Positions 28,915-29,616 of a stretch of DNA of 64,000 bases are shown in pieces. The position numbers were made by a program, and so were the translations under genes. This DNA comes from a bacterium (GTDB lineage: Bacteria > Deinococcota > Deinococci > Deinococcales > Deinococcaceae), in NCBI GenBank assembly GCA_021810505.1, contig JAJZIR010000009.1:1-64000 (forward strand). The letters run 5' to 3'. The notes under the pieces are model-generated. The model worked only from the letters and a program-made list of their open reading frames with translations. It was not told the DNA's origin and did not search any database. Position 1 is the first letter of the stretch. Each line of letters opens with the position of its first letter.

Positions 28915-29616
28915 GTGAGCGAAGAGGGCAAAAACCGCCCGGTCTACGTCATCTCGGTGGCGGCCGACCTGGTGGATATGCACCCGCAGACGCTCCGGCT
29001 CTACGAGCGCAAGGGGTTGATCCGGCCGGGCCGGAGCAGCGGCAAGACCCGGCTGTACTCCGAGCGGGACATCGAGCACCTGCGGGAGATCCGCCGGCTG
29101 ACCCAGGAGTTGGGGGTCAACCTGGCCGGCGTCGAAGAGGTGATGCGGCTGCAGCATGAGCTGGACGACTTGGAGGATCAGTTCAGCCAAGAGATCTCCC
29201 GGATCGAGGGGCAGATCACCGACCGCCTCAACAACCGGGCTCTCCCAGAGCACGCCGGCAGCAACGACCCCCGCGACCGCCCGGTCTACGTCATCTCCAT
29301 CGCCGCCGAGCTGGTGGACATGCACCCGCAGACGCTCCGGCTCTACGAGCGCAAGGGGTTGATCCGGCCGGGCCGGAGCAGCGGCAAGACCCGGCTGTAC
29401 TCCGAGGGGGACGTCGAGCACCTGCGGGAGATCCGCCGGCTGACCCAGGAGTTGGGGGTCAACCTGGCCGGCGTCGAAGAGGTGATGCGGCTGCGCTGGA
29501 GGCTAGAAGGCGCCAGGGGCAAGCTGGAGCGGGAGATCAGCCGGCTGCGGGTCGATCTGGACACGCACATGGAAAATTGGCGGCAGCTTCCACCGCCCAG
29601 CGATGAGCCAGGCTGA
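28915..29616 (+). CDS. Tandem-duplicated MerR/HspR-like regulator
   Basis: A 233-residue protein with two nearly identical MerR DNA-binding domains (residues about 8-79 and 122-193) of the HspR type: [72 protein letters not shown]. Each is followed by a coiled-coil segment. HspR proteins repress heat-shock genes as dimers of single-domain chains; this one would be a covalent pseudo-dimer. The second copy changes SERD to SEGD. GTG 28915 is fixed by TATACT 7 nt upstream. The neighbour in the opposite direction is the carboxyltransferase gene; no dnaK or clpB is adjacent. Confidence 0.9.
28935..29151 (+). repeat. MerR intragenic duplication, copy 1 (217 bp)
   Basis: This 217-bp segment recurs at 29277-29493, offset by 342 bp (114 codons, in frame). 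I count 8 mismatches in 217 positions by direct comparison, six clustered in the first 50 bp and two near the SERD/SEGD codons; the rest is identical. Confidence 0.95.
29277..29493 (+). repeat. MerR intragenic duplication, copy 2 (217 bp)
   Basis: Second copy of the segment at 28935-29151. Near-identity at synonymous positions points to a recent duplication or continuing gene conversion. Confidence 0.95.

Follow-up and report, generated by a model that had tools for sequence, protein, structure and literature searches.

Near-identical DNA-binding cores in an old HspR fusion: concerted evolution within a predicted heat-shock repressor of the Deinococcota

In Deinococcus radiodurans, HspR (DR_0934) represses chaperone and protease genes by binding to HAIR operators (PMC6888292); the consensus of this operator is the palindrome CTTGAGT-N7-ACTCAAG (PMC6102357). 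Single-domain HspR proteins (NCBIfam NF047375), described in the literature from Streptomyces and Helicobacter and present in Trueperaceae among the genomes searched here, share the HAIR operator with the gene analysed below; they carry one DNA-binding head per chain and must dimerise to cover the palindrome, whereas this gene encodes two heads. The same winged-helix head recurs in GlnR/TnrA, CueR, MerR and related regulators (7tea, 4r4e, about 35% identity), which differ in having one head per chain and in responding to other signals through other operators. A fused type of HspR is already catalogued as NF047377 ("HspR, fused homodimer type") and has the same layout of two HspR domains on one chain; its family description, as shown, makes no mention of homogenised cores, which the present gene has. 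Literature searches turned up nothing on fusions or tandem arrangements of HspR or MerR proteins and nothing useful on intragenic concerted evolution.

Family membership and layout of the gene

The gene lies in a 64,000-nucleotide stretch of a Deinococcaceae genome assembly (GCA_021810505.1, contig JAJZIR010000009.1), here called the window. Its frame extends from a GTG at 28915 (alternative ATG at 28894) to the stop codon at 29614-29616, and family scans place two HspR domains within this one uninterrupted frame (Table 1). The product matches NF047377 over positions 1-214 of the 214 in the model with 379.1 bits (cut-off 300 bits), and each half alone passes the single-domain model NF047375 (123.5 and 114.6 bits; cut-off 105 bits). 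PF13411, the MerR-type winged helix, is found in both halves, and with the NF047377 score it confirms the assignment to the MerR/HspR family in the original prediction. The layout typical of the MerR superfamily, in which a long dimerisation helix comes after the winged-helix head, is seen in the PF13411 matches, the PDB matches and the predicted structure, in which each of the two heads precedes a long helix (residues 69-103 and 183-222; mean pLDDT 75, pTM 0.39, AlphaFold). A pTM of 0.39 leaves the arrangement of the heads open in the model. The proposal that the protein is a single-chain double regulator nevertheless stands, in view of the whole-length NF047377 match: a covalent pseudo-dimer is the best reading, in which one chain would act as a dimer and would bind as a single chain.

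Table 1. Coordinates of hspR, its parts and its neighbours in the window
Feature	Position	Strand	Basis
hspR, fused homodimer type	28915-29616	+	NF047377 (379 bits), ORF; GTG start, leaderless reading
Half 1 DNA-binding core (winged helix)	28936-29152	+	PF13411, repeat
Half 2 DNA-binding core (winged helix)	29278-29494	+	PF13411, repeat
Likely conversion tract, half 1	28978-29152	+	2 differences in 175 bases vs 6 in 22 just before; partner 29320-29494
Likely conversion tract, half 2	29320-29494	+	Codon-by-codon comparison
Half 1 coiled-coil tail and linker	29153-29277	+	Tail comparison; long helix in model
Half 2 coiled-coil tail	29495-29613	+	Tail comparison; long helix in model
TATACT, probable -10 of leaderless promoter	28902-28907	+	Sequence; recurrence in relatives
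Carboxyltransferase subunit, divergent neighbour	27216-28895	-	PF01039; start near 28895 inferred
Bax1-I, YccA-like membrane protein, next gene	29603-30442	+	PF01027

The GTG start was chosen because TATACT lies 7 nt upstream of it, an arrangement common to relatives (7-8 nt before the start codon also in G019, G007 and G011). This spacing is in line with leaderless expression, which one report describes for the phylum (PMC12340547). The gene following hspR encodes a Bax1-I protein, and ftsH of the same genome adjoins a HAIR-like site; this may possibly have a meaning or be chance. The YccA-like Bax1-I family is linked to FtsH.

Core identity and the age of the fusion

A repeat finder reports two segments of the gene (28934-29152 and 29276-29494) as 96% identical at a spacing of 342. 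Codon-by-codon comparison of 28936-29152 with 29278-29494 upholds exactly the count first given, 209 of 217 bases shared at a distance of 342 bp within a single open frame. Six of the eight differing sites (28956, 28957, 28959, 28962, 28968, 28977, 29065 and 29071) are clustered in the 22 bases 28956-28977; in the 175 bases that follow (28978-29152) the only differences are at 29065 (SERD/SEGD) and 29071 (I/V), and at 29153, with the onset of the tails, the identity breaks off abruptly. An assembly artefact, named at the outset as the case that would overturn the prediction, is very unlikely in view of the eight differing sites, the different flanks and the same layout in relatives, some of them assembled into one or two contigs. 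The glycine of the SERD/SEGD site is peculiar to this gene in the alignment of 25 fused proteins, and the change from arginine to glycine either is younger than the latest conversion of that segment or was spared by it. The change may affect how DNA is read; that it begins a subfunctionalisation, as first suggested, is conjecture.

The cores resemble each other more closely than they resemble those of any other genome: synonymous-codon identity is 95% within the window gene and 63% to the nearest other genome, and comparison of the cores of G000 and G001 gives 26 sites that are equal within each gene and different between genomes, as against four with the opposite pattern. A nucleotide tree places the two cores of the window gene as sisters with 98% support; it likewise joins the first and second domains of the other homogenised genomes, whereas in a Meiothermus group the first domains and the second domains cluster apart. 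Within-gene synonymous-codon identity of the cores is 92-100% in Thermus and family f3 and 85-95% in some Meiothermus-like genomes, while other Meiothermus and family f5 keep their halves apart at about 44-73%. Sequence comparison thus attributes the near-identity of the cores to concerted evolution, repeated in several lineages.

The tails tell of a different history. Within the family of the window genome (f1), all three other genomes carry the same two-domain gene; the half 1 tail of the window gene matches their half 1 tails at 14-17 of 30 amino acids and their half 2 tails at 5-7 of 30, its half 2 tail matches their half 2 tails at 12-15 of 30 (5-7 of 30 when crossed), and its own two tails share only 6 of 30. 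Because the tails are orthologous by position across the family, the fusion must be judged, from these alignments, to predate it. The duplication was originally described as recent, a dating that does not survive this result, the near-identity being confined to the cores. Across f1, f5 and Meiothermus, orthologous tails exceed crossed ones in 4 of 9, 7 of 12 and 0 of 12 pairs, and beyond f1 either one ancient fusion or several independent ones would be possible.

Three accounts of the core identity compete with gene conversion. Strong conservation of the core protein sequence across the order would suit an explanation by protein selection or codon bias without any recombination, but of 66 positions that encode the same amino acid in both cores 63 also have the identical codon, against 29.8 expected from the codon usage of genes in the window (0 of 200,000 simulations). 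This bears out the initial remark that the identity includes synonymous positions, and neither chance nor codon bias accounts for it; together with 19 third positions that are the same in both halves of a gene but not in both genomes (G000/G001), it refutes that explanation. A recent in-frame duplication of a single-domain gene in this species, which 96% identity at synonymous and other sites would suggest when the cores are viewed in isolation, is in our judgement highly improbable, given the position-orthologous tails of the two-domain relatives and the low similarity of the two tails inside the gene, which is incompatible with it unless tails were swapped in from elsewhere. Scarcely more credible is a collapse to one domain followed by re-doubling in each lineage; one-domain Thermus assemblies (G010, G043, G086, G090) make such a course conceivable, although they may themselves be assembly collapses, and the collapse would have deleted the half 1 tail, whose type is conserved across f1 and Thermus, and would have removed the six differences at 28956-28977 as well. 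Intragenic gene conversion is preferred, since it leaves in place the half 1 tail that a collapse with later re-doubling would have erased, and it is the simplest mechanism that these sequences suggest for the homogenised cores.

Fused hspR genes score above the cut-off in 50 of the 111 genomes searched in the order (a set without Deinococcus, to which a class-wide search added no genome), single-contig genomes included, and occur in Thermus, Meiothermus, Calidithermus, metagenome bins labelled "Deinococcales" and further families; Deinobacterium chartae, the control genome, also exceeds the cut-off. A single-domain form, to be sought among relatives as a parent gene, occurs in Trueperaceae and family f2. 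A Gloeobacterales locus (L176) considered as a distant fused case was rejected as a single-domain gene of 129 amino acids. Several Thermus loci, L071 (G043), L073 (G090), L074 (G010) and L075 (G086), encode a one-domain HspR whose N-terminus is that of half 1 and whose C-terminus is that of half 2; this may reflect true contraction between the repeats or assembly collapse of the repeats. Contigs end inside hspR at L079, L026 (G051), L069 (G082), L024 (G021), L080 (G017) and L087 (G034), as would be expected of short-read assemblies interrupted by the identical cores; an apparent lack of hspR in such genomes is not to be trusted.

HAIR sites and regulatory role

Three sites in the same genome stand at heat-shock genes. 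An exact HAIR palindrome lies 173 bp before lon; in the interval between ftsH and dnaK, which are divergent (ftsH start read by eye), a HAIR-like site with three mismatches stands 4 nt before a TTGACA; and another with three mismatches, before clpB, shares bases with the TTGACA of a TTGACA-N17-TATACT promoter. Sites with up to three mismatches are not raised genome-wide (31, against 58 in a reversed-pattern control), so that only their placement speaks for a role; the chance of three sites at heat-shock genes is about 1e-6 for seven 200-bp search intervals and 2e-5 for twenty, with the intervals chosen in knowledge of the family. Among relatives, HAIR precedes ftsH-like frames in G001 and G002 and lon-like frames in G014, G025, G059 and the f2 genomes G029 and G044, these frames being named from sequence rather than by family scan. 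The sites at lon, dnaK and clpB would suit the same repressor role as that of DR_0934.

The promoter region shared by hspR and the carboxyltransferase gene contains no HAIR-like site, the best match having six mismatches (at 28838), and thus shows no sign of autoregulation or of HAIR control of the carboxyltransferase. HAIR at its own promoter is known in some HspR systems and is not required of the family. Likewise, hspR of Streptomyces lies within the dnaK operon, an arrangement that the sequence models do not require; here dnaK-grpE-dnaJ is on contig C8 and hspR, outside that operon, on contig C3. In most Thermus (g6) loci, among them L065 (G085), L075 (G086) and L014 (G053), a 7-7-7 inverted repeat with the layout of HAIR (for example CTTTAGC-GGGAGGA-GCTAAAG) encloses the ribosome-binding site about 10-45 nt before the hspR start codon. 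This repeat might serve as an operator for autoregulation or, as RNA, form a hairpin that masks the ribosome-binding site. In f3 genomes (loci L198, L199, L200, L201, L204 and L207) a one-mismatch HAIR of the form CTTGAGTGTG-TATACTAAAG stands just before a class III aminotransferase-like gene, a candidate for an unexpected HspR target.

Two further alternatives concern what the protein does. The original prediction had the gene facing the carboxyltransferase promoter, and the divergent arrangement is as described; a local regulator of the carboxyltransferase in place of a heat-shock repressor would also agree with the closeness of the two starts and with a carboxyltransferase-like frame one gene away from hspR in G001. 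Local regulation is nonetheless improbable, given the lack of a HAIR-like site at that promoter, the absence of a carboxyltransferase beside hspR in G003 and the sites at heat-shock genes, from which the window gene is most likely a heat-shock repressor, not a local regulator. A more substantial rival, although still an unlikely one, is that each chain pairs with a second chain and presents four heads to extended or paired operators, the fusion serving to raise avidity. The predicted model does not fix the arrangement, a chain built head to tail is not bound to pair with itself, and three HspR dimers on one operator have been proposed for Helicobacter pylori (PMC6102357); against this, the two distinct tail types are what an unlike pair within one chain would allow, and among the best three sites per stretch no second HAIR site accompanies those at lon, dnaK and clpB.

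A probable repressor with homogenised heads

Our main reading, to which we assign a probability of about 0.8, is that the gene encodes a fused-homodimer HspR repressor, that its fusion is older than the family, that its heads have been homogenised by intragenic gene conversion, and that it acts through HAIR at lon, dnaK/ftsH and clpB. One chain would carry two winged-helix heads, each with a coiled-coil helix behind it; both heads of that chain would most likely bind one palindromic operator near these promoters, and bound HspR would block transcription until relieved by heat stress. Gene conversion would overwrite one core with the other, here and repeatedly elsewhere, while the tails diverge, and the need of a palindrome for two equal heads may favour this homogenisation. 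A wider version, held tentatively and at somewhat less than even odds, sees the protein as a naturally occurring single-chain repressor in which recurrent gene conversion, favoured by the palindromic operator, keeps the heads equal while the tails specialise as an unlike pair, with homogenising lineages (Thermus, f3, f1) set against those that do not homogenise (most Meiothermus, f5).

As a gene, the fused hspR would code for a heat-shock repressor of a kind ordinary in its phylum, and only the recurrent homogenisation is a notable part of it. Near-identical internal repeats were misread as a recent duplication, where the flanks reveal that the fusion is old and that only the overwriting is recent. 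Should selection favour the homogenisation, the family would offer a test of whether a palindromic operator forces equal heads in a fused dimer.
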